64,000 nt of DNA from Fragilariopsis cylindrus CCMP1102 (Eukaryota > Bacillariophyta > Bacillariophyceae > Bacillariales > Bacillariaceae). Every line of letters starts with the position of its first letter. Positions within the stretch are counted from its first letter, which is position 1. This document shows positions 3,486 through 62,116 of the stretch, one piece after another. The notes under the pieces are model-generated. The model was not told the origin of the DNA, did no database searches, and saw only the letters and a list, made by a program, of their open reading frames with translations. Both the position numbers and the translations under genes were made by a program. The stretch covers positions 62,001 through 126,000 of the forward strand of contig FMBT01000406.1 of NCBI GenBank assembly GCA_900095095.1, read 5' to 3'.

Positions 3486-5068
3486 ATGACGACCACCACC
3501 ACCACCATCACGACGACGACGACGACGACGACAGAAGCGACCACTACATCACAACAAGTGCTGGCAATAGCGGAAGCGGTCAAGGCACGAGAACAAATCG
3601 TAAAAGATGTCATGTCCGAAATTCCGAAGGAAGATAGGGGAGAATTACTGGCACTCGTAATCAATTGTACTTTAGATAGTAAAGTATCGTTCGTTGATTG
3701 TCTCGTTCTCTTCTCCCTCATGATTAAGAGAGATGACGAACCAAAACCCTGGGATTATGAATTTACACGTAGTGGATTAAGTGGGTTTGACTATTCATGT
3801 TCTGATATTGACTTTAAACTTGACGACGATGGTAGAATAATAAAATTGGAATGGGATTCAGTATTTGAAGATTCTCCAACCGGCATTGAACGCCTTGAAA
3901 GATTGACAATGCTAAATTGTTTAAAGTGGGATGAGGAGCTTAGCAATTTGTCACATTTACAAACACTTGGTTATAGTTGCTATGATGATTCTAATTCTTT
4001 TCAAGTTGATTCTTTTCCAGTTGATATGAAATTGGACAAATTAAGGACACTTCATGTAGATTGGTGTAATTTCAAATCATCTTCGTCGTTGTTTTTGACA
4101 TGGATGTCAAAGCAGATTTCGAATTTAGAACATCTCTTTTTTTATAGTATGGAAGAAAAATCTATGGACATTGTATTAGATGCTCTTCGTGATAACAAAT
4201 TTAGTTTTCAAGATAAATTAAAAAGTTTAAAGATGAACGAATGCAGTATTGATGGCAATCGATTTGCGACTATTTTGCTAGAGATTCTACCAAAATTTAA
4301 AAAGGTATCATCACTCCAACTTGGTTTGAATAAGATCGAAAGTGTTCAACCCACTGTTGATAGAATTATGAAAAATTATAATAAAAGATTATTTCAAAAT
4401 CACTCCGCATCGTCGATCTTAAAGACAATCCCATCATGAAATATATAAAGGAGGAGCCGAAGGAAAAAAAGGCATTCATGAGTTTCCTTCACTCCTTCAA
4501 TACTATAAGCAATCTTGGTGGTCTGAAGAAAAATGATTACGGTCCGGACTTAGAATATGCATTACGAATTAATCACGCTGGAGGACGGACTATCATTGCA
4601 GAGAATAGTAGCTGTATTAGCAATCACAACGGAAATACAACACCAGCTCTACCTTTTCCGGTATGGCCCATTGTGTTAAAACGATCGTATGCAAGATCTG
4701 GTCATATCTACAATCAAGATATCTACAATCAAGATTCGTCGATACGAGATGAGAAGGATGCCACAGGCCTTTACGACTTGGTACGTAACAGTGGATTAGC
4801 ACTACTTACACGACCGAAGCAGAGTGCAGGTAACAGTGATCAATCACCAACATCGTCTTCGGCATCATCGGCATCATCCAATGGTGACGATGATATTAGA
4901 AAGAAGCAAGCATCGAAACGTAAATGCGTTGAGATGTTAGAAATCACCAACGGCATTGTCGATGACAACGAGAAAAACAGTACTGCAGCAGCCACTTATT
5001 CTTTGTCTACAACTGGCATAAAGAATCACTCACCATCGAGCAAACATGCGTGTTCTCGTCATGGATAG
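3486..5068 (+). CDS. Diatom-type leucine-rich-repeat protein, one frameshift
   Basis: ATG at 3486 follows an A-rich leader and opens with a poly-Thr tract. The region to about 4390 contains LRR-like units (IERLERLTMLNC, LSHLQTLGY, LDKLRTLHVDWC, DKLKSLKMNEC, VSSLQLGLNKI). The last, best unit, SLRIVDLKDNPIM, is in a second frame that continues from 4385 to 5068. That part carries the tail typical of this diatom family: KEEPKEKKAFMSFLHSFNTI, DLEYALRINHAGGR, VWPIVLKRSY, DATGLYDLVRNSG, then a low-complexity basic end. The frame switches once between about 4383 and 4405, near short A runs. Without the shift the protein would be about 527 residues. LRRs usually mediate protein binding; the partner is unknown. 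Confidence 0.75.
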
Positions 5069-5633
5069 TGAAAAATTGTGAGTACGTCGTGTGTAATGGT
5101 AGGGGTGGTGGTGGTGGTGGTGAATGGATCGTTGAAAATGAGAAACGGAAGTAGTGGAGTATATGTACAATCCTCCCACCGTTCGTACATTGTGTGAAGC
5201 CAATATTGCTACTGCACTTTCTCCTACCATCAACGATAAGGAAGAAGGATGAATGCGGCTGCACAAAAGTAATATTATCTAGAACCGCAAACACAACTGA
5301 GAAGTTCTTTGACACATTCCTTAACCGTAATAAAGATGGAATATACTCCTATGTAGTACTAGTATATGTGTCTAATTATAATGTAACATCTATAGAGTTG
5401 TCGTCGCAATGAAGTTGATCGTATGCGAACGCTACCAGTACAAAAATAATAGACTATCACAATAGGTAATAGAAAATACACTGGCCCTTCCTTTACTGTA
5501 GTTGCTATAATATTTTGCATGAAATCTACTTCCTGAATCAGCAATAACTGGTAACGATACTGATACCATCCATTGTATTTCCTCGATTCCGTACAAATTT
5601 ACTACACAAAAATCATGACCCTAAAGAATGAAT
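5069..5633. other. Convergent intergenic region
   Basis: Spacer between the 3' ends of the LRR gene (+) and the MYND gene (-). It has a GGT-rich patch at about 5099-5122 and otherwise no feature I can support. Confidence 0.5.
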
Positions 5634-7085
5634 TCAGGCAAGTGAATTATTTAGGCCGCATTTCTTCCCATGTGATAATCTCCAGTGTTCTTTCTGGCAT
5701 CTTCTTGAACAGTACGCCACGCTGTTGCATCTCGAGCATCTATCAAAGCTCTTCACATGAACCTCGACGTCCTTACATGTAGGATTCGCACATCGAGCCA
5801 GTGGACTAGCTGTATACATGTTTATCATTTTCTCCCTCTCTATCCCAGTGAGATTTTTACAGTCACAGTACCGGCGTAAAGCATCATTCCATTCTTTTGT
5901 TTGATGCATAAGTTGATTTTTGGTAATATCCCAGTGCAAATCGTTCCAATATAGCGTTTTGTCATTAATTCGCATCTCACAAATATCAACATACATATTA
6001 ACGTCCCAATCGTACATTCCTGATATTCTATCCGGATCTGTAGAACCAAGGATTGATAACATAGACATCTTTCGAAATTCGGAATAATCAAATGATTTCG
6101 CCTCATCTAATAATTTGCTTGAGACTTTTGAGACGAGTCCTAAATATTCCCCATTGTAATCATTTTGGTAGTTGTGCTGGGTACATTCTGACCAACAGCA
6201 CTCGAAATGTTGTTTATACTCGTCTACGTCATTATAACCACAACGGCAGTTAGCTAACGGAGAATGTCGCCATCTTAAGCTCGATGTATTTTCGCTGTCA
6301 TTATTATTCTCGTAGTAATAATATGGAACTTGTATCGAGCCGCATGCAGCTGCACCGTGACATTCTTTCCATGGAAGTCTCGACCCGCAGCGGCAATGTA
6401 CAAGTCTAATCTTATCCTCATCAGATTTGAAGTTATCCATGGTACGTATGAGCTCTGATTGCTTCGAAATCTTGGCCAATTGATATGCATTTTTATTACC
6501 TAAATTCAATGAATGCATATACATGTTTTTCTCTTTGTACATCTCATTGCAATCTGCACCAAGCTTCACTAGTTGTATGGCACATTCTAAATTCCCTCGT
6601 AGTGTCCCAGCCAATTCTGGTTGTACTTGAAGCATCTGTCTCTTTTGATCTTGCGATGATATACCAAAAAATGCAAGGTTCGAACATGCGAGTAAAAGCG
6701 CCGTGGTATCACACGTAAATGCTTCCGTATCGGAAGAAACCACTTCGGATAGCTTTTTTGTCCGATAATCAAGAGCCGCCCCCAAGGCAACTGCTTTCTC
6801 AAGGAGGAGTATATCACCCTTCTCTGCTGCATAATGGAGAGTGTTGTAATTTTTGTGGTGAACATTTCGAAGATATGAGTAGTTGACGTCTTTGAGTCGG
6901 TATTGTTTTTCCAATTCAACTGTTAATTGTGTGTCTTGAGATAAATGATCTCTTGCAACTTTATTCCACGCGGACAATTGTTTCCGGTAAAACTTGGAAG
7001 AACGGCTATTGGTACTGCTATTGTTATTGTTATTGTTATTGTTATTGTCGTCGTCGTCGTCAACGGAACTTTTGTTGCTTATCAT
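5634..7085 (-). CDS. Ankyrin-like / SEC-C-like / MYND zinc-finger protein
   Basis: The 483-residue intact frame starts after an Asp/Asn-rich leader. An ankyrin-like unit lies near residues 78-110 (NTLHYAAEKGDILLLEKAV). Around residues 225-250, CRCGSRLPWKECHG resembles the SEC-C zinc motif (CxCGSxxxWKxCH), followed by a further CRCG...C..C cluster. The C-terminus is a canonical MYND finger at about 432-476: CANPTC, CSRCNSVAYCSRRCQ, HWRLSHGKKC, which gives all Cys/His ligands. MYND fingers bind proline-rich peptides and recruit regulators; ankyrin plus MYND is a common stramenopile layout. A direct enzymatic role is not indicated, since no SET core is seen. The gene is divergent from the HA-repeat gene at 7880. 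Confidence 0.85.
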   Translation of the reverse strand: MISNKSSVDDDDDNNNNNNNNNSSTNSRSSKFYRKQLSAWNKVARDHLSQDTQLTVELEKQYRLKDVNYSYLRNVHHKNYNTLHYAAEKGDILLLEKAVALGAALDYRTKKLSEVVSSDTEAFTCDTTALLLACSNLAFFGISSQDQKRQMLQVQPELAGTLRGNLECAIQLVKLGADCNEMYKEKNMYMHSLNLGNKNAYQLAKISKQSELIRTMDNFKSDEDKIRLVHCRCGSRLPWKECHGAAACGSIQVPYYYYENNNDSENTSSLRWRHSPLANCRCGYNDVDEYKQHFECCWSECTQHNYQNDYNGEYLGLVSKVSSKLLDEAKSFDYSEFRKMSMLSILGSTDPDRISGMYDWDVNMYVDICEMRINDKTLYWNDLHWDITKNQLMHQTKEWNDALRRYCDCKNLTGIEREKMINMYTASPLARCANPTCKDVEVHVKSFDRCSRCNSVAYCSRRCQKEHWRLSHGKKCGLNNSLA

Positions 7086-7763
7086 TGGGATGTTTCGTCG
7101 ATAGCTGTGGGGGACGTGATATTTTCGAGTTTTTCCCAGTGTCGTAATTTATGATATGCTCGTGCCAAACGAAATATATTCTGTTTATTCCGTTCACACT
7201 GGACCGCTTTAACTGCTTCATCCTTCTCAAATATCCAACCATTTTCCGGAGTTATTGCTTCATCACCCGTCTTATCGCCTATATTTATTGCTGCTGCTTG
7301 ACTTCCGATCCTTATTTGCTTTATTCCCCCTCGAGGAGGAAAACCTCGACGATGCTGACTTCTTCCCCATTACTATTAACTTTTATCGACTTTTAGTGGC
7401 GGGGCGCTACTCGTCCATTCGTTATTCTTTCTTGTTGATTTATTTTGTAGGTACGTAAGACAGATGTAAGATATATTATGATGTGAAACTATCACCTTTC
7501 CAACTTCCATACCGATACAGTACGGTTGAAGACAAAGAACAAAGAACAAGATCTTCAGAAAGCATTGATTTAGGGGCGGGCGATATTACCTGATTGAAAG
7601 GGGGGGCATATTTCCTATTGTAGGATCCTTTTCCTTTTAAGCATCATATCCCCCAAATCACGTTTCGTTGATCGAGTGTACATTGTATCTGAGATTTGCG
7701 GTGAATTTTTGCTAGTTTCACATCTTTCTTACCCACACATACCCTTCGTCTCTTTTCAACTGG

Positions 7764-36171: not shown

Positions 36172-39100
36172 ATGTCAGCAAAAGCAATACGTGAATATCG
36201 TGGTAAGAAATTAATATCCTATCATGTCAAAGATATAAGTAATGGGAAACATATTATTGATGATCGTAGTGTATTAATAACATCTACTACAAATTATGAT
36301 TTATTAGTAGAACAAGAATCATGGTTATTAACTACTCCATTATTAGTTGTGAAACCGGATCAATTAATTAAAAGACGTGGTAAAGCAGGATTAGTTGGTA
36401 TAAAATTAAATTGGATGGAAGTTCAAGAATGGATCTCACAAAAAATGAATACTGAAATTACATTAGAAAGTAGTAGTGGTAGTAAAGACGGTGTGACTGG
36501 TGAACTTCATACTTTTATTGTGGATCCATATGTAGAACATTCACAACAAGATGAATATTATATTTGTATCCAATCCGATCGGAATGGGGAAGAAATATTA
36601 TTTTGTAAAGATGGTGGTGTCGATGTTGGTGATGTGGATACCAAAGCAAAACGTATTCACATTGGTATTGATAAAATTGATTTACTTTCGAATGAATTAA
36701 TTGATGCAGAACTTTTGGATGGTGTACCATTAGAACGTATCACAGAATTATCATCCTTTATTATAACACTTTTCGAGGTATATCGTAAATTAAATTTTAC
36801 ATATATGGAAATTAATCCAATTGTCTTTTCAGAAAGTGAGGATGGTACAACAACAACTATTATACCATTAGACTTAGCAGCAAAAATAGATGAAACGGCA
36901 TCCTTTTTAAATGGACCAGATTGGGCAAAACCAATAGGAGGTCATTTAGATTTACCGGCACCATTTGGACGAAAAGAATATCCAGAGGAAGAATATATAC
37001 GTGAACTAGATTCCAAAACAGGTGCATCGTTAAAATTAACGGTATTAAATGAATATGGACGGATATGGACAATGGTATGTTACGTTACGTTGGATTTTTT
37101 TATACGTTGTTACGTTGTTCCGTTACGTACCTGATCGGAGGTTCCAAACCAATCGCATCACCACTCCTCATTACATCTTCTTTGCGTTTACAAAAAGTGT
37201 CACGCTAGAACCAAATCAATCCTTTATACGTTGCTCTCTCTCTCTCTCTCTCTGACACGAAATCTTCCTCTCCTCTTCCTCTGTCTCTCTCTTCCTCTTG
37301 TTTCTCGTTGTTTTGTCTGTTATTTTAGGTCGCGGGTGGTGGTGCATCGGTTGTATATGCTGATACTATATCAGATTTAGGTTATGCAAATGAATTAGCG
37401 AATTATGGTGAATATTCTGGTGCACCATCTACGGAACATACATATGAATATGCAAAGACATTAATTGAATTAATGACAAAGCATGAACCACCACTAACAA
37501 AAAAGGGTGATGACGATGGTGAGGACAATAAAGGTAAAATATTTATTATTGGTGGTAGTATTGCAAATTTTACTGATATTGCTGCAACATTTGCTGGTTT
37601 AATTAAAGCATTATTGGCATATTGTGATATATTATTAAAACACAATGTATCAATTTGGGTCCGTAGGGCTGGACCAAATTATCAAGAGGGACTCCAGATG
37701 TTACGTGAATGTTCTAATACAACTGGATTAGATATTAAAATCTATGGTCCAGAAACGCATATAACTGCTGTTGTACCACTTGCATTAGGATTAGAAGCCA
37801 TTAAAGATTTTCCACAATTTGATGATCCATCACATTTACATAAGAAAGAATTAGCAATGTCTGCTACTGCTAGGGCTGTTGCTTCTGCGGCTTCTAGTAA
37901 TAACAAAGTAGCAGATGTTGCTAACGCTGACGCCACTACTAATGCTAATGCTGGTAATATGAAACGTATACAATCATTCCATAGACAAATTGCTGACCAT
38001 GAAGCTGATCATAGTGTTGAAAATTTTACTGCTAAAACAAGATGTGTCGTTTATGGATTAATGCCTGTTGCAGTACAAGGGATGTTAGATTTTGATTTCA
38101 TGTGTAAACGTGAAAAACCATCTGTTGCTGCAATGATATTCCCATTTAGTGCTAATCATTATATGAAGGTATGTGTGATGGACGCTTCATACTTTTTATA
38201 CGCTTTATATAGCATATTACATTACTTTACATACCGTTATATCGTCTACATTTTTCACTAACCCACACACGCACTCTCTATCTATCTCTCTCTCTCTCTC
38301 TTCAAAAATCAGTTTTATTGGGGAACTAATGAAATCCTACTTCCTGTCTATGAATCTATGGATGAAGCATTCCAAAAACATCCTGAGGTTTCTGTTGTTG
38401 TAAACTTTGCTTCTTTTCGTTCAGTTTATGGGTCTGTTATGGAAATGCTTGAAAATCATTCAGAACAAATCAAGACCATCGGGTGAGTATATGCATGCCG
38501 TTTGGTCGATCGCATCGGGTCGCATCCTCCTCCTGTTCATGTATCGGTTGATGATAGTACGGCAAAAGGCTTCATAATTGTAGTGAAACTCACGTCTGTT
38601 TTTTGTTTCCTTTTGTTTGTTAACATTCTTCCCACAGAATCATCGCAGAAGGTGTCCCCGAATCTCAAACCAGAGCATTTAATAAGGTTGCTGCGGATAA
38701 GGGTGTTGGTATTATTGGACCAGCGACCGTAGGCGGAATCAAGGTGAGTTTTTCTAAGGAATGAATTGAGTAGAGTTTCGTGTACACGTACAGCTTATAT
38801 ATCTTGGATTATACTCTAATTCGGGCAACTAATGATATATTCTGTCGTTCTGTCTCGCGTAATCATATATCATATATATTGTACGTACTTGTCTCTCTTA
38901 GCCCGGATGCTTTCGAATTGGTAATACCGGTGGTATGCTCGATAATATTGTTATGTGTAAATTGTACCGTCCTGGTTCAGTTGCTTACGTATCACGATCC
39001 GGTGGCTTATCCAACGAATTGAATAATATGATTTCACGAAATACTGATGGAGTGTACGAAGGAGTTGCCATTGGTGGTGACCGTTATCCCGGATCAAGAT

Positions 39101-40302
39101 TCCTCGATCATATTTTACGTTACAATGATAACCCGTCCGTTCATATGCTGGTATTATTGGGTGAAGTGGGTGGTATCGATGAGTATCAGATCTGTGATGC
39201 ACTTAAAAGTGGACGGATCACAAAACCACTTGTTGCCTGGTGCATTGGAACATGTGCGTCCAAATTCACCTTCGAAGTTCAATTTGGACACGCTGGTGCC
39301 TTGGCCAAGGCGGACATGGAAACATCTATGGCCAAGAATGCTGCGTTGAAGAAGGCCGGTGCACACGTACCAGAAAACTTCTTTGAGTTTGGTAATATGC
39401 TCAATACGATCTATACAGTACTAGTCGATTCTGGTTCTATTGAACCTGCTCCTGAAGTGGAGGCACCTAAAATACCAATGGATTATCAATGGGCGAAACG
39501 ATTAGGTCTTGTTCGTAAACCTGCTGCCTTCATTTCATCTATATCCGATGATCGAGGAGATGAACTCAAGTATGGAGGTATGCCCATTAGTGAGGTATTT
39601 GATAAAGATTTGGGTGTCGGTGGTGTACTTGGATTGTTATGGTTCCGTCGTCATCTACCTGTACACGTGACCAAGTTTATTGAAATGATCCTCATGGTCA
39701 CCGCTGATCATGGACCGGCAGTATCTGGAGCACATAACACGATCGTGTCTGCTCGTGCTGGAAAAGATCTAGTGTCAAGTCTATGTAGTGGATTGTTAAC
39801 GATCGGTCCTAGATTTGGTGGCGCACTCGATGATGCAGCTAAGATGTTTACATCTGCTAGTGACAAAGGACTTGACGCCGAAACATTCGTAAAGGATATG
39901 CGGAAACAAAACAAACTCATTATGGGTATTGGTCATAAGATCAAATCATTGTCCAATCCTGACAAACGTGTCGAAATTATTAAAAATTATGCATTAGAAC
40001 ATTTTGATGACAATTCCGTATTGCTGTTTGCGTTAGCTGTCGAACAGGTAACAACAAAGAAGAAGGCGAATCTTATTTTGAATGTTGATGGTTGTATCGC
40101 TGTTTGCTTCGTGGATATGCTTCGAAGTTGTGGTGCATTTACCACAGAAGAAGCAGATGAACAAATCGAGAATGGATGCCTTAATGGATTGTTTGTACTT
40201 GGTCGTAGTATTGGATTTATTGGTCACTTTTTAGATCAAAAAAGACTGAAACAAGGCCTGTACAGACATCCGTGGGATGATATCTCGTACCTTACAGAAT
40301 AG
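36172..40302 (+). CDS. ACLY: ATP-citrate lyase, five exons
   Basis: Exons: 36172-37074, 37329-38168, 38313-38482, 38638-38743, 38902-40302. All introns are GT-AG; several have pyrimidine-dinucleotide tracts. The product is about 1139 residues, the single-chain type known from animals and many protists. Order: ATP-grasp-like citrate/CoA-ligase beta part ([41 protein letters not shown]), citrate-binding region, CoA-binding alpha part ([27 protein letters not shown]), phosphohistidine loop FGHAGALA (His about residue 803), and citrate-synthase-like C-terminus ([44 protein letters not shown]). It converts citrate, CoA and ATP to acetyl-CoA, oxaloacetate, ADP and phosphate in the cytosol, feeding lipid and sterol synthesis. 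It looks complete. Confidence 0.96.
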
Positions 40303-40511
40303 AACGAGAGTTGAGATTAATTAATTAATTTTAAGCCTGTAAGATAGAATGTTTATACGGTATGACAAAAATAAAACAGAACAAAAAAATGATGATTGGA
40401 ATTGAAAATGGAATTGAAAATTGAAATAAATGATCGATGAATTAATTAAAAGTATTTGTATTAAGAAGAAAATAAAAGTTTATTATTATTAAATTATTAC
40501 TTGCTTCTATT
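40303..40511. other. Short AT-rich spacer
   Basis: Convergent spacer between citrate lyase and the small myristoylated-protein gene. AATTAATT-rich; probably 3' untranslated sequence of both. Confidence 0.5.
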
Positions 40512-40664
40512 CTACGCCGCTATCTCCGGTGTCTCCGGTGTCGTGCTGGTAGTAGGTGTTTTCTTTGTCGTAGTACTATTTTTAAGAGAAGCAATCGCTA
40601 CATGATGCCGACTCGTATCTAAATCGTCTCCGACATCTTTACTTTTGCTGCATATACCACCCAT
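40512..40664 (-). CDS. Small 50-residue protein with N-myristoylation motif
   Basis: Minus-strand ATG at 40664 gives MGGICSKSKDVGDDLDTSRH, then HVAIASLKNS and a Thr/Pro-rich end PETPEIAA, stop at 40512. The N-terminus fits the MGxxxS myristoylation consensus (Gly2, Ser6), with Cys5 as a possible palmitoylation site and Lys7/Lys9 as a basic patch. Such a tripartite signal anchors proteins to membranes. Composition is ordinary, with many CpG-containing codons, unlike the CpG-poor block to its right. I know no named family. It may be a complete micro-protein or the first exon of something longer, although the stop is in frame and no donor is obvious. Confidence 0.5.
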   Translation of the reverse strand: MGGICSKSKDVGDDLDTSRHHVAIASLKNSTTTKKTPTTSTTPETPEIAA

Positions 40665-40984
40665 GATGGATTGATTTTGTTGTCGCTAGCTATTATCAGT
40701 GGCTTGGCTTTGTAAAGAGGGAGACAAAGAAGGGTGTGGACAAGAAACCTTGTACTGTACAGTATGTGCAATAAGAAATACAGTAGGCCTAGAAAGTACA
40801 TCATTACCGGTATGCATCATTCTTTGGTGACAACGATATACCTACGACGTGAAGAAGATTTTGATTGATTCATTCCCGTCTGCTCAGGGAAGTTATGCAT
40901 ACAGTATTCGCTCGGCCTGGATAGGGCCTAACGTAGTACTACTGCTACTTTGTACTGGTTTGTACTACCGTACGTGTCAGGCTG
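40665..40984. promoter_or_regulatory. Upstream region of the small protein gene
   Basis: 320 bases of normal CpG content between the small gene's ATG and the edge of the CpG-depleted block. Contains several GTAC-rich words. Confidence 0.4.
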
Positions 40985-43900
40985 GTCAGCCAGGTGTTGC
41001 TCTCTTTTTATTTTTTGTCTCTTGTACAGTTTTTTTGTTTAACAGGATTCAAGTAAGTCTACCAACCCCTTGACATCACACACAATCAAGATAGAGCTAT
41101 TGGTCTCTACAATTTGGTAGAATGAATTGTTCCATTGTATGTCATGTGGTATGAAGATTGTTGTCAATGTACAGAAAGAGCAGAGATAGCAGTGTGTATC
41201 TACTATTTGTGCAGGTGGTTGGGCTAGTTCTTAGTAGTAGATTATCTCAACATCGTCAGCTGTTGTTGTTGTAATAGTAAAATATTGTGAATATAATCAT
41301 TTAAATTTGTTGAATGGCTTGCACAAACATTTATCATACATCTTCTTTTCCTCATATCACTGATGATGAAATGAATAACAGCTTGGTGGTTAGTTGGTGG
41401 TATTATTATTAGTTATAATTATTTGCTGTAGTATAATATACGTACCACCAATAATAATAACAGTATAAGATAGATAATGTATTTGCATCAACAACCACAA
41501 ATATTGCATTGTAATATTATCATCATAAGTCTGTTATGAACAAGATAATTCAGGGACTAATAATGGTAAATGCTTCTATGTTTCATTTCCATGTATGATG
41601 TCCATTAAACAACAACTATAGTGTAGAAGGATGATCAGAAAGTTTTGAATCATGAGGGACATCCTTGTCTCCACCTTCTCCAAAGTTATACAAATAAGCT
41701 TGTCTCTTCTGATATAGATGGACAGGGGGGGGGGGGGGGGGCATGTTGACAGTCTTATCATAAGTAGTGCTGCAGGGTTGAGGTCGTAATAATAAGAATG
41801 GTTCTCAATTTACATCATGTTTGTGCCATCTATTTTTGGTCAATCTCCACGATGATTTGTTGGGGTGGTGAATTATACATTCTTTGTGCCGATTATGATA
41901 CACTACCTTCATACTGCAATTTTGTTAATGTGCTTTGGTTGGGGTGGGTGGGGTCAGTTGGTGTTGAAATAAACACATATTTTTGTTGCTTTGGCTGTTC
42001 CTGTGATATGGCAGTCCCAAGTACACTTACTTGATTGAGAGAAGTATGATGATAAGAGAAAATGTGACATTCACTTTTTTGAAGACAGTTTAATATCTCA
42101 TGAACCCAGAAGAAGGATGATGCTGTGATTTTCTATCAAGAAGCAAATAACTCTTAGTTGTGTTGTCCACTGTTGATCATTAAAATGGTGGGCAGGTGAG
42201 GAGAACCCATAGGACAACTAATATTTATACTGTTTACCCTACCGTGCACCATGTCAGGCAAAAAGGTATATGGCTAGCTCCCGCTGAATTCTGCCTTCTA
42301 GATGCATTAACAAGAATCATCATTCCATCAACGTTACTAGAGCTTACAGTCAAATAGGAAAGGACTAAAGTAGAAATTATGAGTACTAGCTATTAAGAAC
42401 TGAACCAGAGAGACAGAAATATAGAGTTCAGTGATATTGCATGATAGTGTGTAGTAGTAGCCGGAGTGGTTGCATTGCAAACCAGTGGATTGCATACCAG
42501 TAGTAGTGGTTTTCACTTGCATCTGGACTCAATCATCTATGACTGAATGCAAGATATACCTAATTTCTGTTAGACATAACAATGGGGTGTGTGACTGTAC
42601 ATCCATTGATATCAATCTATCTGTTTGATACAAACTTACCAGACAAAATATAGATACTGGTACTCTGAATAGGGAGGAAAATGTCAGTGTAATTTGTGCA
42701 TTTGAGAGGAGAATTCTATGGGGTTGTATAGGGATAGTAGGCAAATCTCAAATTGCCACAAGAGGTGCATAGAGGAGAGGAGAATTACAGAATTACGGAT
42801 GATTAAGGATCGGGTGAGATAGAGTTATAAATTATAAAAACTACTATAGTAGTAGTAGCCTTAAAAGATGATCCATTATCAACAGGTATGTTGGACTTGT
42901 TTTCTCCAGAATATCTGATCATGTGTCTCTTTCAGTAGAAGCAAGTTTATATTAACTTCCACTCTTTTTCTCAAAGCTTCAAACCAATAGTCAAAAAGTG
43001 CAGTGGTCAGAGGTTAAATTATCATGTATATATGATGTGTATTGTATCCTTGCCACTGCCAGTACTAGACTGATTGGTTTGATGATGCGATGGTTTGAAT
43101 GGTGATGAATTCTCTTTTGGCACTGATAGGTGTGTGGTGGGTGATTTTGCTCAAACATGAGCAAATTTTGTTGCTGTAAGTGGTATGGGTGGTCTATAAG
43201 ATGATTGCAGGTTCCTAATATAATGGAGCTAATACTTTCATTGAGCAAACTGGGATACAGCACAGCACAGCACACATGCTTTCTTGCATTGAAAGAGGTG
43301 CATGATGAATGTTATTTTTTTATCTCTTGTTGCACACTTCTTACTATGTGTACAGATCCAGTTGGAACAAACAGAAAATGAATGCGGGAGAGAAGAAGCT
43401 GGATCTATCATTGAATGAAATTATATGAGTAAGTGTGCCTATACTTGGTTGCTGGTATTAATGTTGTAACTGATGTAGAGTAAATCATTCCGTTAATTTT
43501 ATTGCAGACAGAACAGGTTTAGCCACAATATTGGTTTTAAAACGCTCATCACATTATAATGTTTATTTGACCCTGATTTTATTTTGTGTTGAAGCGCAAT
43601 ACATAGTAATGGTTGTTACACAAACTCTATTATATTGTTACTGCTGCTGCTGCTGCTGCTGTTCATTCGTGTTGTTATTGTTGTTTGTAGTTAGGTGGTG
43701 GCAAAGCACCCATATTCCTTACTATTGAACAATCACTTTATTACTTGAAGATATATTGAGTCTGAACCTTCACATACTACTGAGAAACTCAAATCAAATG
43801 ACAAGGAAGGGAATATGTGGTATGTAGACAACATTATCAACACTGCCAGCAATCAAATACACCAATACTCCAACATATTGATTGTGTGTAGCTTATTGTT

Positions 43901-45185
43901 TGGTAGAATGGTATATAGTGGCTGCCGCTTTGCCTCTCTAACTAACTTAGAGGAAGAAATAGCTGGCAGTGACTGAAACACCAACACTCTTGCACCTGGA
44001 TCTCATCTTGGTATGTGGGAAAAGGAGATGATATGGTATACTTTGATAGTCCACTCCCTACCCTGCAATAGAGAGGTGTTGTGGTAGAGTAGTTACTGCT
44101 ATTGTAGGACCAAGAATATATCATCGTTGTATCTACATACCTGTTGAAAATGGACCCCTGCAAAGAGAGGGATCTTGTGCAACATCATTTGTTTGTCTCT
44201 AAGCAGCAATGAATACTGTAGTAACATCAACTAATGATTCAACTATCTCAAACTTGGCACCACAGTGATATTTATGGGCTATTCCAGGTTTGTGTTGGTG
44301 GCTAAATTATAAATCCACATTATTGCCATTACTACTAGGCAAAAACTGAGGTGTAGACCACAAATTGAAACATTGAACTAGAGTGCTCTGTTGACATTTA
44401 TTCACAATAGGTACCAAATAAGTGCCACATGCTGTATACAACAGCAGCAACATATAGTGAGTGTGCCTATTTTTTCCAATCAGTCACTGGTGCATGCTGG
44501 TAGCTTCCCATACATGGGTTCCTGGGATTGTAAAGTGGAGCTAGGGCCTAAAACTGGTGCTATGCATATTCTATACTGTCATAACTCTGCACATGCAGAA
44601 ATTTATACTATAATTTATTGTACCATTGTTCTCTTCTCTTTACCTTGGCAAAGTTTTATATGTCATGTGCTTTGAGTACTGAATGATTGATTGCTAACTG
44701 ACTTGATTGATTCCCTCACATTAGGTTTGCTTCGCAAGGAAGGAGGATGAGGGAGAAAATTGCTGTTTGTTGTATTGTGCGAGAGATAAAAACTCTATAT
44801 CAACAGTTATCTTACTAGCACATACTATCATCACAGCTGGCTCAGAACAAAGTACATGCTGTGGTTAACACTAAGTAACTGTATCTACCTGTACTCTATT
44901 ATAGTAGTAAATGATAATAGGTACATGATGCTGTTGTAGTAGTATTCTTTTTAATTCTTATTCTATATTTGAGTATGGAAAGTGGACAGACTCTAGTACA
45001 AATAAAAACACAGCCTAGGCTGCTGCACCATTGCTTCTACTGTGTATTTTCTCTCTATCATAATAATATATTATTATGTGCTACATCCTCCGTACTGTAT
45101 TACATTGAACATGGGATTTCACTTAAGTATGGACTGCCCAGGGACCAGTAGAAAATTGTACAGCGGAGTGATGTAAAGAAGCAGT
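40985..45185. other. 4.2-kb ORF-free, CpG-depleted block
   Basis: No open frame longer than about 95 codons, and none with family features. By eye I count about 22 CG dinucleotides in 41041-45180 (about 5 per kb), against about 37 in the next 1020 bases (45241-46260). TG and CA are abundant. It includes a G17 run (41725-41741) and short CTG/TAG repeats. Edges look abrupt on both sides, but I found no terminal repeats or target-site duplication. Possible readings: a long-term methylated segment that lost CpG by deamination, a very old silenced insertion, or a long non-coding RNA locus. Confidence 0.6.
41725..41741 (+). repeat. G17 homopolymer
   Basis: Seventeen consecutive G inside the CpG-depleted block. 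Confidence 0.9.
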
Positions 45186-46764
45186 TAGAAGTCCAACGTG
45201 TTGGGGAGAAGAATAATTAGTGGCTTATGAAAAATAAATCCGTGTTTGAAGTTGAAGAAAATGTTTTTTTTAAGGGGAATCTCATCTTGAATTCGTATAA
45301 GTAAGTGAAGTACAAAAAATATTTATAGAGTTACGGAGCCGATCCAATTACAATATATAATTTGTCTCATTTTTTGTACTATTGAAGTACGAAAGAAGGT
45401 TTTTCCGAGCGACGCGACTACAAAATTAGTACATTAATTGGATCAGTCGCTCAGCCAATTTAATCTTTTTGTATGCTCTTAATCTATTTTTTCATTTCAT
45501 AGTCTATACTTTCAAATCAAATACATGCCCCTTAAAAACGAATTGCTAGGCTACTGAAATTTAATAATGATAGCGACTTATTCCGTCTTGTCGGGGCTAT
45601 TATTGTATATAATATAATATTATTATCATTATTACCGTAGAAAAATATCGGATGATCTACTAGTATGTATTTGTAACACAAAACAGAACGGTTTACTGCC
45701 TGGAAACTGTATGCACTAGTTGTGTGTGACTACTTACTTCCATAAGGTCCTGCCATCGTTACAGTGTTTTAAGTAATCAATTGCCATTCTGAAAGAATAT
45801 CAACAATAAAAGCTAGTGCGGCAAAATAACGGAATAGCGACGAAAAATTGACACAAAGTTCAATGTATCAATAATTTTCATTTAATCTTTGATAAAAGTT
45901 TTTGATTGAGTAACTTCCAATGCATTTTTTGGGCGATGCGCCTTTGTTTTTTTGTTCCAGTAACATTGGGCCTTGTTCTTTGATTGTTCTTCAATCACTC
46001 GCTTAGAAAACGGTATTTTTCCGTCATACTAGTACGAGACTACGTAGAAAACAGCATCTCTCTCTCTCTCACCTGAGAACAAAAGCAAGAACTTCGAAGA
46101 CAACGGCGCTTTTATTGACTTAAAGGTATTTGTCTACAAGGTACCGCAGTCTCTACTTTTTATTCGTGAATCTATGCAAGATCTCTGCCCTCTCACGTAA
46201 TTGTTGCAGTACCGTACGTACACCATTGACATTCTTTTTGACATCATCTATTGAAGAATAAAGTCATATAGCGACAGTACGCGAACAATTCGCTTTCATT
46301 CATTCATCTCACAAATACAATACGGCAGTCACAACTTCAACATCACTTTTAACACACTTTGACATCTTCTATTTTATTCATTTTGTTACACAGTTAAAAA
46401 AGAAGAAGAATAAAGTCATATCGCGACGTTCATTCATCTCACAAATACATATCACGAATACAATATAGCACTCACAACATTACTTTTACAAACACCTTCG
46501 ATCTTCGTACTTCAAGTATACGTGCATTCATCTCACAAATACAATACAGTACCGCACTCACAACATTACTTTTACAAACACCTTCGATCTTCGTACTTCA
46601 AGTATACTTCTCACGTGAAACTAACCCAAAACAAAACCGAAAGCTAGCTTCTATCTCTCAGTAATAACAGGCACCGTACTACTATACTGCACCAAGAAAG
46701 TTGTTGATTGTCAATAATCACTCATTATCAAATCAAGTTATCCAATTCATCCAAGCAAGCAATC
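45186..46764. promoter_or_regulatory. Upstream region of the HSF gene with internal repeats
   Basis: Normal CpG content returns here. The last 500 bases hold repeated units starting CATTCATCTCACAAATAC at 46297, 46431 and 46525, and AATAAAGTCATAT at about 46255 and 46409. No gene is seen. Confidence 0.55.
46469..46607 (+). repeat. 53-bp perfect direct repeat upstream of HSF gene
   Basis: 46469-46521 and 46555-46607 are identical: CACTCACAACATTACTTTTA, then CAAACACCTTCGATCTTCG and TACTTCAAGTATAC. They are part of a longer ~90-base unit whose less similar first copy begins near 46297. The second copy ends about 160 bases before the HSF ATG, so it lies in the promoter or 5' leader. Confidence 0.85.
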
Positions 46765-48650
46765 ATGATTTCAACTCTTTCATCCTCGTCCTTCAATCAA
46801 GGCCTTCTTATGAACAACATGGATGTTACAACCACTAACAGAAAGGTACAAGCACCACAAGCGCAAGATCAAGAAAAACACCCAGTTTCTGTTTCTTCTC
46901 CTTCACGATCACAATCACAATCTTCACACTCTTCACACTCTTCACCGGCAAAGTCACAATCATATAGGAGTGGACCTAATTCAATTCCATTTCCATGGAA
47001 ATTACATCAAATATTAGATGATGCAGCAACTCAAAAATTTGATTCTATCATATCATGGGTACCATCACATAATGGGTTTAAAGTACACAAACCGAAAGAA
47101 TTTGATTCTACTATTATGCCAAAATATTTCCATCAAACGAAGTATAAGAGTTTCCAAAGACAATTGAATATGTGGGGGTTTGAACGGGTCGGTAACGGTG
47201 AACAAAAAGGGTCGTATTTGCATCCATACTTTATTCGTGGCAAACCGAATCTATGTCGTGAAATGCAAAGAACTAAAATTAAAGGTATACATTCTAAAAA
47301 ATTACGGAAAAGTATTACTATTAATACTAGTAGTGATCACAGTGGTACCGGTATGAATAGTATGAGTAGTATGAGCAGTATTGGTATGATGAATAGTATG
47401 AATATGATTGGTAGACATAGTCTGAGTAATATGGCTATGGGTTGCATGAATAATATGAATGCTACACGTACTTTCTCATCAACAGGCGGATCAGGACTAG
47501 GATTAGGATTAGCATCTACACAAGCAGTAGCAGCTTCATGGCAAGCTGCTGCACATAAGGTTGCCGAATTAGAACGTCAAAGAGAAGAAATTGAAAAGAA
47601 ATTAAATGCCGTAGTAAGACAACATAATCAGATGAATGATAGCGGCATGAATAACAATATGATGACACAACGCATAACTGAAGCAATGGATTCATCATGT
47701 GTTTCAAACTCAAGTTCAAACTCCAATCCGAATTCGAATTCGCAACAACAACAACAAGATATTACTAACCAAGTTCAAGGACAACTGCAAGGATTACAAG
47801 GATTACAACAAGTTGGACTACAAGGAATTATTAATGCAAGTTCTGTACCACTTGAAGAAGGTGACAGTTTATTCTTTGAGGGACGTAACTTTTTCTTTGT
47901 TGAAGAAGGTACCCCAAAAGAAATTGGTTCTGATGGTGCTGATGGTGCAGAGAAGATGAAACCACAAGAACAACAAGGACAAGGACAACCACAAGGACAA
48001 CAGCAACAGCAACGTCGTCCTAGTCGTCCTTCTCGTCGATTCTCACTTGAATTGAAAGGACCTGATAGTGATGAATATGTCCTAAAGGAATTAGAGGAAG
48101 CTATTGGTATTGATCTTGGTACAGGAATTTTTAATACTGATACAACACCTGCTACCAGTAATAATAATAGTAATACTACTACTACAAATGCCACCTGCAC
48201 TAGTACCAATAATACTATTACTGCTGCTACTGCTGGTCAATATCTTGATATTAAAACATCGTACGGAAATGTATCAACATCAGCTGCAAAGAGAGTATCA
48301 TCCTATTATTCTCAAGATCAAGATCAAGAAGATTTTTACCAATACCGATCTCATTTCCATTATCATCATCAACATCGTCATCTTCCAACAGTAATCATAA
48401 TGAACCTACTAGCATCAATGGATTGTTTCTTGGTCTTGATCGTCCGGGTCGACGATTTAGCTTATCATCAACACCAGTCTATAATCCATTTGAAACAAAA
48501 ACAAATATTTCAAATGTATCATCATTTGCACCACAAACAAAATCAAAATCTTTCATGACATCTTGTTCGAGGAATAACTTCAACAACAATAAAAGTGACA
48601 ACAACAGCAATAACATTCTCAAAAAACTTTCGACACGTGTATCGTTTTAA
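46765..48650 (+). CDS. Heat-shock-factor-type transcription factor (diatom HSF), one frameshift
   Basis: Start at the ATG at 46765 (MISTLSSSSFNQGLLMNNMD); the frame opens upstream only with TTG. The HSF DNA-binding domain follows: PFPWKLHQILDD, ISWVPSHNGFKVHKPKEFDS, MPKYFHQTKYKSFQRQLNMW, GFERV, then the diatom-typical GSYLHPYFIRGKPNLCREM. A short coiled-coil (AAHKVAELERQREEIEKKLN) may allow oligomerisation. Poly-Q, poly-N and PSRRFSLELKGPDS-type segments follow. At a T5 run (48333-48337) the meaningful frame changes: downstream LFLGLDRPGRRFSL and FETKTNISNVSSF are in another frame and end at 48650. Read straight, the protein ends at 48558 in His/Gln-rich sequence. HSFs are the largest transcription-factor family in diatoms and bind DNA through the winged helix seen here. 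Confidence 0.85.
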
Positions 48651-49406
48651 AGCGAAGAAACACATCACATCGCATCAGAAATAGAATAAGTTAACATTTA
48701 TAAACATGCATATTAATTATACAATGATTTCTATTAGTTTGTACTTATATTAAAAAATATATAGGACTTTTATGCTATTATATTCTATTCTATTTTATTC
48801 TATCCATACTCCTTTTTAGCCATTGTACATATAGTGCAGTTGTACGGACTACTACTACTACTACTAGTCTAGCTACGACGTTACTACAAGATCACACTTC
48901 CGTGAGGAACGAGGCTGACAAGAGCATCTGTCATAAAATTAAGAGCCTTTTGTTGAAAAATCAATCACAAAAGAAATCAAAGAATCGTTGAAATCCTGCC
49001 TGAGTCACAAAGACAACTCAGAGGGAAGATCAGAAGGAAAATCGACTTCTTCGCTTCGACGACGATTGCAATTAATTGTGACCATCTAAACTACAGAGTG
49101 TAGACCCTTCAGGCTTTCTTTAACTTCATAAAAAAAAATACAAGTGTGATAGAAATGGATGTCGTCATACAGTACTGATGTAATACAGTACTACTGTAAG
49201 TCCTACTAGTAGCGATATTGTTAATTGTATACAGTATATCGCGCGTTAGTTTGTTCTTTTTTTTCTTTAGTTAACGCAATCTATTATTAAATCAGGATCA
49301 TTACGATATTATAACATTAATGTTGGTTGTATTGAATACCGTTTTGAATACCGTTCTAGATAGTACCATAAATAACTACATACTCTAATACATCGTTCAC
49401 GCAATG

Positions 49407-61233: not shown

Positions 61234-62116
61234 TGTTTAATTTTCTCGATTAATTCAGCTTTGTAATTGATGCGAGAGATTATTTCCATTGATATTGACT
61301 AAAGCAAGTAGTAGTCATGCATATATTAATATAGATGAAGATGATACGGTTTCTTATAATTATATAATGGGGAGAAAAGTAAGAATTGATGAAAGCCTTT
61401 CAACGGATCGTGTAGTTGACGAGGAGGTTGTTATGCCGGAAATATAGTCTACTCTTTGAGATGTGTAAATTTCATTATACAGCTACACTAAATTTTTCAA
61501 GATTTGAAATGTACCAGTATCTTCAAGTACTTTTACCTAGTTGTCAAATATTCTCGTGCGCTTTCAATTCTCACCGGGATCATCGCGTGACAAAAATTTC
61601 AATGGATTGTTCTTGGATGGTGCATAATAATATGTTGAAGTTTTTTAAAGGACTAAAATATGCATTCCTCGCAATTTTAGATACTTTTCTCAGTCGTGTA
61701 TGTCTTATTTCACATACTGATTAGAGTTAGAGCGATCGCTAATCGTGAATTTATTACCATGAATCAACGAGGATGTCCAGCAAACGCAGGCACGATGACC
61801 GAGAATAAAAACGACGAAAACGATAAATAAAATAAAAATTCAAAATCTTCTATCTATCTCGTCATCGTCTAACGAGCTCACATCATCATAGCTACAGTAC
61901 TATCATCATTCCTACATACACAACGAACCGAGGAAGTCAGTCATTCTACAATCATCACCATCATCGCATACTACTGTACTAGTAATCGATTACATTACCG
62001 AGGCATTCTTGTGTTATCCTATTTGCCATTTCATTATATATTCATTCCGAACTTATATTTGCGTGACTTCAATTCAAATCATCCATCCATCAGCCTAGCC
62101 CGTCCGTCCATCCATC
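61234..62116. promoter_or_regulatory. Divergent intergenic region
   Basis: 883 bases between the capping-like gene (-) and the ubiquitin-like-domain gene (+). A 102-codon plus-strand frame at 61416-61724 has no family features and I leave it out. TCATC-rich leader before 62117. Confidence 0.5.

Follow-up and report, generated by a model that had tools for sequence, protein, structure and literature searches.

The question raised by this locus is what could have removed almost all CpG dinucleotides from one gene-free block of about 4 kb. The window analysed here is a 64-kb stretch (positions 62,001–126,000) of contig C26 of the Fragilariopsis cylindrus genome (67.9 Mb, 818 contigs). By Pfam family, the genome has 27 silicon transporter matches (PF03842) on 11 contigs and 15 matches to cytosine-C5 methylase domains (PF00145) on 10 contigs. 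Judging from base composition and from a comparison of homologous copies, the block is most probably a long-lived CG-methylated island that lies between two genes of this diatom and consists of old non-coding DNA in which repeats are embedded.

Composition and boundaries of the block

The maximum-scoring CpG-poor segment of the window is 4190 bp long (Table 1), and a two-state segmentation returns the same interval as the sole block of its kind. It contains 22 CpGs against 140.8 expected, i.e. an observed/expected ratio (rho) of 0.154 vs 1.035 for the remainder of the window. The depletion reported in the first-pass annotation, which was made by inspection of the letters, is therefore borne out by computation; its count of about 22 CpGs in the slightly different interval 41041–45180 becomes 23 upon recounting. 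The segment scores 77.6, the top of 2000 shuffles of the CpG spacings of the window is 32.3 and the runner-up segment of the window scores 10.3, in agreement with the earlier statement that no similar island is present in the window. The statement that the rest of the window is CpG-normal is true of its overall ratio but not of every part, as seven further 500-bp windows drop to ratios of 0.40–0.56.

The CpG deficit of the block (119) is close to its excess of TG and CA over the intergenic ratio (146). CA/TG is at 1.42 of expectation inside and 1.18 outside, which agrees with the TG/CA abundance noted earlier, and TA is at 0.92 inside. CAG/CTG trinucleotides display no depletion (Markov ratio of 1.03 in the block vs 0.97 in intergenic DNA), so that, as far as a footprint can tell, the context is CG with little non-CG. 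The GC content of the block is about that of its surroundings. The GC skew is positive (0.07–0.18) in five successive 1-kb windows (40001–45000).

Both edges are sharp, as had been claimed. On the left, the final CpG is at 40973 and the next one is found only at 41254; on the right, CpGs return at 45091, 45164 and 45197. The longest stop-to-stop frame within the block is 106 residues long. A six-frame Pfam search of the block finds nothing above the cut-off (one sub-threshold match has an E-value of 0.043) and, in particular, no transposable element (TE) protein. Nothing in the block exceeds the Rfam gathering score (best E-value of 0.72), and no tRNA is predicted by ARAGORN anywhere in the window. 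Terminal inverted repeats were searched for at the block ends and were not found, so the block does not qualify as a complete transposon of that type, and tandem-repeat and inverted-repeat searches reveal nothing that would explain it. The earlier observation that no open reading frame, transposase or terminal repeat is visible thus stands.

The two flanking genes encode an ATP-citrate lyase and a protein with an HSF-type DNA-binding domain (Table 1). A small open reading frame is located between the former and the block. It has no Pfam family match; residues 1–29 of its product are identical in a second copy of the region (see below), its tail varies and its start (MGGICSKSKD) resembles an N-myristoylation signal.

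Table 1. Features of the CpG-poor locus and of related repeats. Coordinates are those of the window unless a locus is given.
Feature	Position	Strand	Evidence
ATP-citrate lyase gene, several exons (left flank)	36172..40302	+	Pfam PF24948, PF16114, PF08442, PF00549, PF00285
Small 50-residue open reading frame (left flank)	40512..40664	-	List of open reading frames; C563 copy
CpG-depleted, ORF-poor block	40974..45163	.	Maximum-scoring segment; two-state segmentation; CpG hypermutable between copies
Repeat X, decayed copy, dispersed, non-coding	42348..42558	+ (arbitrary)	71–82% matches in 10 of 20 repeat-chosen loci
Repeat Y, decayed partial copy, dispersed	42575..42950	+ (arbitrary)	69–80% matches in other loci
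Right interval where CpG behaviour switches	44926..45091	.	Discordant to fully shared CpGs
Gene with HSF-type DNA-binding domain (right flank)	46708..48558	+	Pfam PF00447
Complete Y copies	L029:4724-5707; L026:3896-4891; L026:4939-5950	.	Terminal inverted repeats

CpG turnover between two copies of the block

Contig C563 of the same genome carries a collinear, syntenic copy of the block region, which is either the other haplotype or a homeologue. At aligned sites, the two copies are 97–98% identical in the two adjacent coding stretches that were compared, 95.8% identical in the right non-coding flank, 79.5% identical in the poorly aligned left stretch (40665–40973) and 91.3% identical in the block, where the alignment has 732 gap columns. 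The block was selected for the low CpG content of the window copy. C563, which played no part in that selection, has a CpG ratio of 0.10–0.27 over the block in 500-bp windows, with 0.47 in the last one.

In the block, the single, gapped alignment of the two copies contains 42 CpGs present in either copy, of which seven are shared, 15 are found in the window only and 20 in C563 only. Of the 35 discordant CpGs, 27 are CG in one copy and TG or CA in the other; these counts are unpolarised and cover both directions of change. Outside the block, in stretches that include coding DNA, 216 of 271 CpGs are shared (129 of 165 on the left, 36329–40820, and 87 of 106 on the right, 45170–48800; Fisher p = 2.3e-15 for the contrast between inside and outside). 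When scaled by non-CpG divergence, the turnover of CpGs exceeds that of other dinucleotides by a factor of 7.7 in the block (bootstrap 4.7–15.1) and of 1.7 on each side of it; some dozens of C563 bases were aligned twice, where two pieces join. At a turnover ratio of 7.7, the CpG ratio is expected to equilibrate near 0.13; the observed value is 0.154. The mutational footprint is thus CpG-specific and confined to the block, which is an expected consequence of a methylated island and not its definition.

At the right edge, discordance ends with the CpG at 44926, and the 12 CpGs that follow it (45091–45415) are all shared. By segmentation, the C563 block ends at the match of position ~44831, about 330 bp before the end of the window block, because five CpGs at 44832–44926 are present in C563 only; opposite two of these five, the window has TG or CA. 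The left edge is less exact because the alignment is poor at ~40829–40990.

The block displays no visible constraint and has evolved at an about neutral rate, since its non-CpG divergence of 7.7% (289 of 3737 sites, C26 vs C563) is similar to that of fourfold sites in four neighbouring coding stretches (6.7%, 43 of 639 sites, with 3.2–14% per stretch). Divergence below the neutral rate, which would mark a conserved RNA or regulatory element, is therefore not seen. The 6.7% fourfold difference of the C26/C563 pair stands beside one to two non-CpG differences per 8–9 kb in two other homologous contig pairs (C293/C240 and C711/C760); loss of heterozygosity, assembly redundancy or duplicated regions could explain such uneven divergence.

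Repeat relics within the block

Decayed copies of two dispersed repeats, X and Y, cover 587 of the 4190 bp (~14%) of the block and are CpG-poor there. The genome holds at least 55 X or Y matches, four of which are the block itself and C563 (the best 40 of 179 candidates were scored). In a genome search that skips very common words, the part of the block outside X and Y matches only itself, C563 and two short places of 143 and 56 bp. Complete Y copies, two in locus L026 and one in L029, are ~1 kb long, non-coding and bounded by 17-bp terminal inverted repeats, and all three are flanked by 4-bp target-site duplications. They are CpG-normal (observed/expected ratio of 1.03–1.16) and are located at or between CpG-poor blocks.

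Among repeat sites with a CpG in the copies outside blocks, copies within blocks have nine CG and 43 CA or TG, and copies outside have 57 CG and 40 CA or TG, a contrast that is partly circular because the sites were picked on the outside copies and the blocks are defined by low CpG. The terminal motif of Y, with both of its CpGs changed to TG or CA, persists on the boundary of the L028 block and also within the homologous pair L012/L013. The decayed X and Y pieces, together with these decayed termini elsewhere, indicate that the block holds relics of old repeats. The rest of the block may likewise have begun as transposon insertions. The silenced old insertion proposed in the first-pass annotation is thus supported in part, by the X and Y pieces, but not by a complete element, a terminal repeat or a transposase, and the remainder of the block has its matches in C563 and the two short places.

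Similar blocks elsewhere in the genome

Segmentation of 20 loci chosen for a match to X or Y yields 14 further CpG-poor blocks, 1.6–4.2 kb long, in 11 of them. Fewer than 14 are independent because L012/L013 and L016/L022 are homologous pairs. Three loci on contigs with hits were not chosen for repeats; a CpG-poor stretch is present in two of these (L032, by segmentation, and L034, judged by its profile and running off the left end) and absent from L033.

Among five pairs compared for replication, two homologous pairs hold blocks. In L012/L013, three of 20 CpGs are shared inside, with a turnover ratio of 12.4, and 239 of 271 are shared outside, with a ratio of 1.4; only nine of the 17 discordant CpGs inside face TG or CA. 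In L016/L022, 12 of 18 CpGs are shared inside (ratio of 9.1) and 105 of 160 outside (ratio of 2.0); here the outside stretch partly overlaps another CpG-poor block, which belongs to L022. L019/L020 and L015/L018, with two and one non-CpG differences, are too similar to be informative, and L028/L029 could be aligned over only ~390 bp of a repeat. The first-pass annotation had named many CpG-poor blocks without methylation as an outcome that would speak against its reading. Blocks do exist elsewhere, and in both pairs that hold them CpGs are hypermutable. L019 and L020 are nearly identical (two non-CpG differences in 8121 aligned sites); near 5793–6769, L020 carries extra sequence relative to L019 with a weak Y match at 6134–6212, a candidate recent insertion.

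Inverted repeats of 170 bp (82%) lie close to the edges of the L024 block (3976–7761), which also contains internal repeats of ~190 bp. As a query, this block has at least 305 matches in the genome (the best 40 of 669 candidates were scored) and hence belongs to a large repeat family. It suggested that CpG depletion might end at the edges of terminal inverted repeats. This idea was abandoned, as the similarity to L029 does not stop where the CpG-poor block ends but extends for another ~70 bp into CpG-rich DNA. Six-frame Pfam searches of the L024 and L012 blocks find no TE domain (weak matches, best E-value of 0.11). When the residual CpGs of 17 blocks are pooled, with both members of homologous pairs counted, there is no convincing periodicity of the nucleosome type (~180 bp).

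Decay does not extend to every recognisable TE, as two stretches with Copia elements have a normal CpG content. Stops occur in five of 150 RVT_2 matches scored (out of 264 candidates) and in six of 83 RVT_1 matches. As the Copia stretches are CpG-normal and few matches contain a stop, the recognisable TEs look mostly young.

Possible origins of the CpG deficit

The hypermutability of CpGs in the block is probably due to 5-methylcytosine. In the proposed mechanism, 5-methylcytosine at CpGs inside the island would deaminate to T, turning CG into TG or CA, the decay would have run to about mutational equilibrium, and the flanking genes and their promoters would retain their CpGs. The state of the island would be one of silencing. 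The long-term deamination envisaged in the first-pass annotation is well supported, if indirectly, by the turnover ratios of 7.7 vs 1.7, by changes that are mostly between CG and TG or CA and by the near match of deficit and excess; its description of the composition was right, and its account of the cause probably is too. Points that count against a methylated island include the small share of recognisable repeat, the CpG-normal Copia stretches, the low TG/CA share in L012/L013, the earlier edge in C563 and the dependence of the counts on one gapped alignment.

A conserved long non-coding RNA or a regulatory locus, in which a CpG-poor composition is functional, would account for the presence of the block in both copies, its sharp edges, its lack of open reading frames and its positive GC skew (0.13) on the + strand. 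We consider it very improbable, since the block diverges about as fast as fourfold sites, is rich in gaps and matches no Rfam family, and a composition held by selection would not predict that CpGs of one copy face TG or CA in the other. The non-coding RNA alternative of the first-pass annotation, with such divergence and many indels, thus finds no support here. Sharp edges and the lack of a similar block in the window would also suit DNA that came from a foreign or other source, was poor in CpG from the outset and has experienced no local mutation bias. We give this possibility very little credence: the excess turnover of CpGs is found in the block and not in its flanks, the excess of TG and CA is about the size of the CpG deficit, and X and Y recur elsewhere in this genome.

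Repeat-induced point mutation, or a similar process acting on duplicated DNA, also causes C-to-T type changes in repeat-bearing DNA, but its signature is a change of CpA to TpA. The block displays neither CpA depletion nor TpA excess, its CA/TG being raised, and the two Copia-bearing stretches are CpG-normal despite belonging to a family with at least 150 scored matches, all of which makes such a process scarcely credible. That the block is a site with a dedicated chromosomal role (a centromere or an origin, for example), present once per chromosome, would fit a gene-free block of a few kilobases and is almost certainly wrong, given that similar blocks are found at 11 of the 20 repeat-chosen loci and at two of three others and that the GC content is unremarkable.

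Relation to known systems and implications

CG-methylated TE islands have been described in diatom genomes (PMC9998398; PMC5124317), and methylation in C. cryptica is mainly at CpG and mostly over repeats (PMC5124317). The block resembles these in being an isolated island in a CpG-normal genome, in its CG context, in its link to repeats and in the presence of cytosine-C5 methylase domains in the genome. It differs in that it is known through mutations alone and is mostly unrecognisable as a repeat or TE. By its sequence, it looks like a block that behaves as a diatom CG-methylated island would, and hence like a kind already described, with many members in this genome, rather than a new type of element.

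Methylated DNA of vertebrate genomes undergoes CpG decay, in which, as in the block, CpG changes to TpG or CpA several-fold above background and the CpG ratio is near the equilibrium predicted by the rates. The arrangement here is the inverse of CpG islands set in a depleted genome: only islands are decayed, and the genome around them is CpG-normal. In fungi, repeat-induced point mutation likewise produces C-to-T type changes in repeat-bearing DNA, but the context in the block is CpG and not CpA, and TA is not above expectation. Among the titles listed in literature searches that covered mostly non-subscription journals, none concerns CpG-decay islands in diatoms; absence from print is not claimed.

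It is unlikely, though conceivable, that the islands are self-perpetuating methylated domains that have outlived the transposons that seeded them. The CpG equilibrium, the recognisable repeat content of about one-seventh and the switch from discordant to shared CpGs within 165 bp on the right are the basis of this idea, whereas the edges that differ between the copies, with that of C563 lying earlier by composition, count against it. If it were true, methylation would be copied as a bounded domain for very long periods, even though no target sequence can be recognised.

The block is otherwise ordinary, and it is an unusually clean mutational test of CpG decay. The finding that a methylated island is the best explanation suggests that heritable CG methylation in this diatom leaves a scar that can be read from the sequence alone and that the turnover ratio predicts the CpG level. 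A scan that uses only sequence and homologous copies could map long-term methylated islands in diatoms without a methylome, and could ask how long methylated domains persist after their repeats have decayed.
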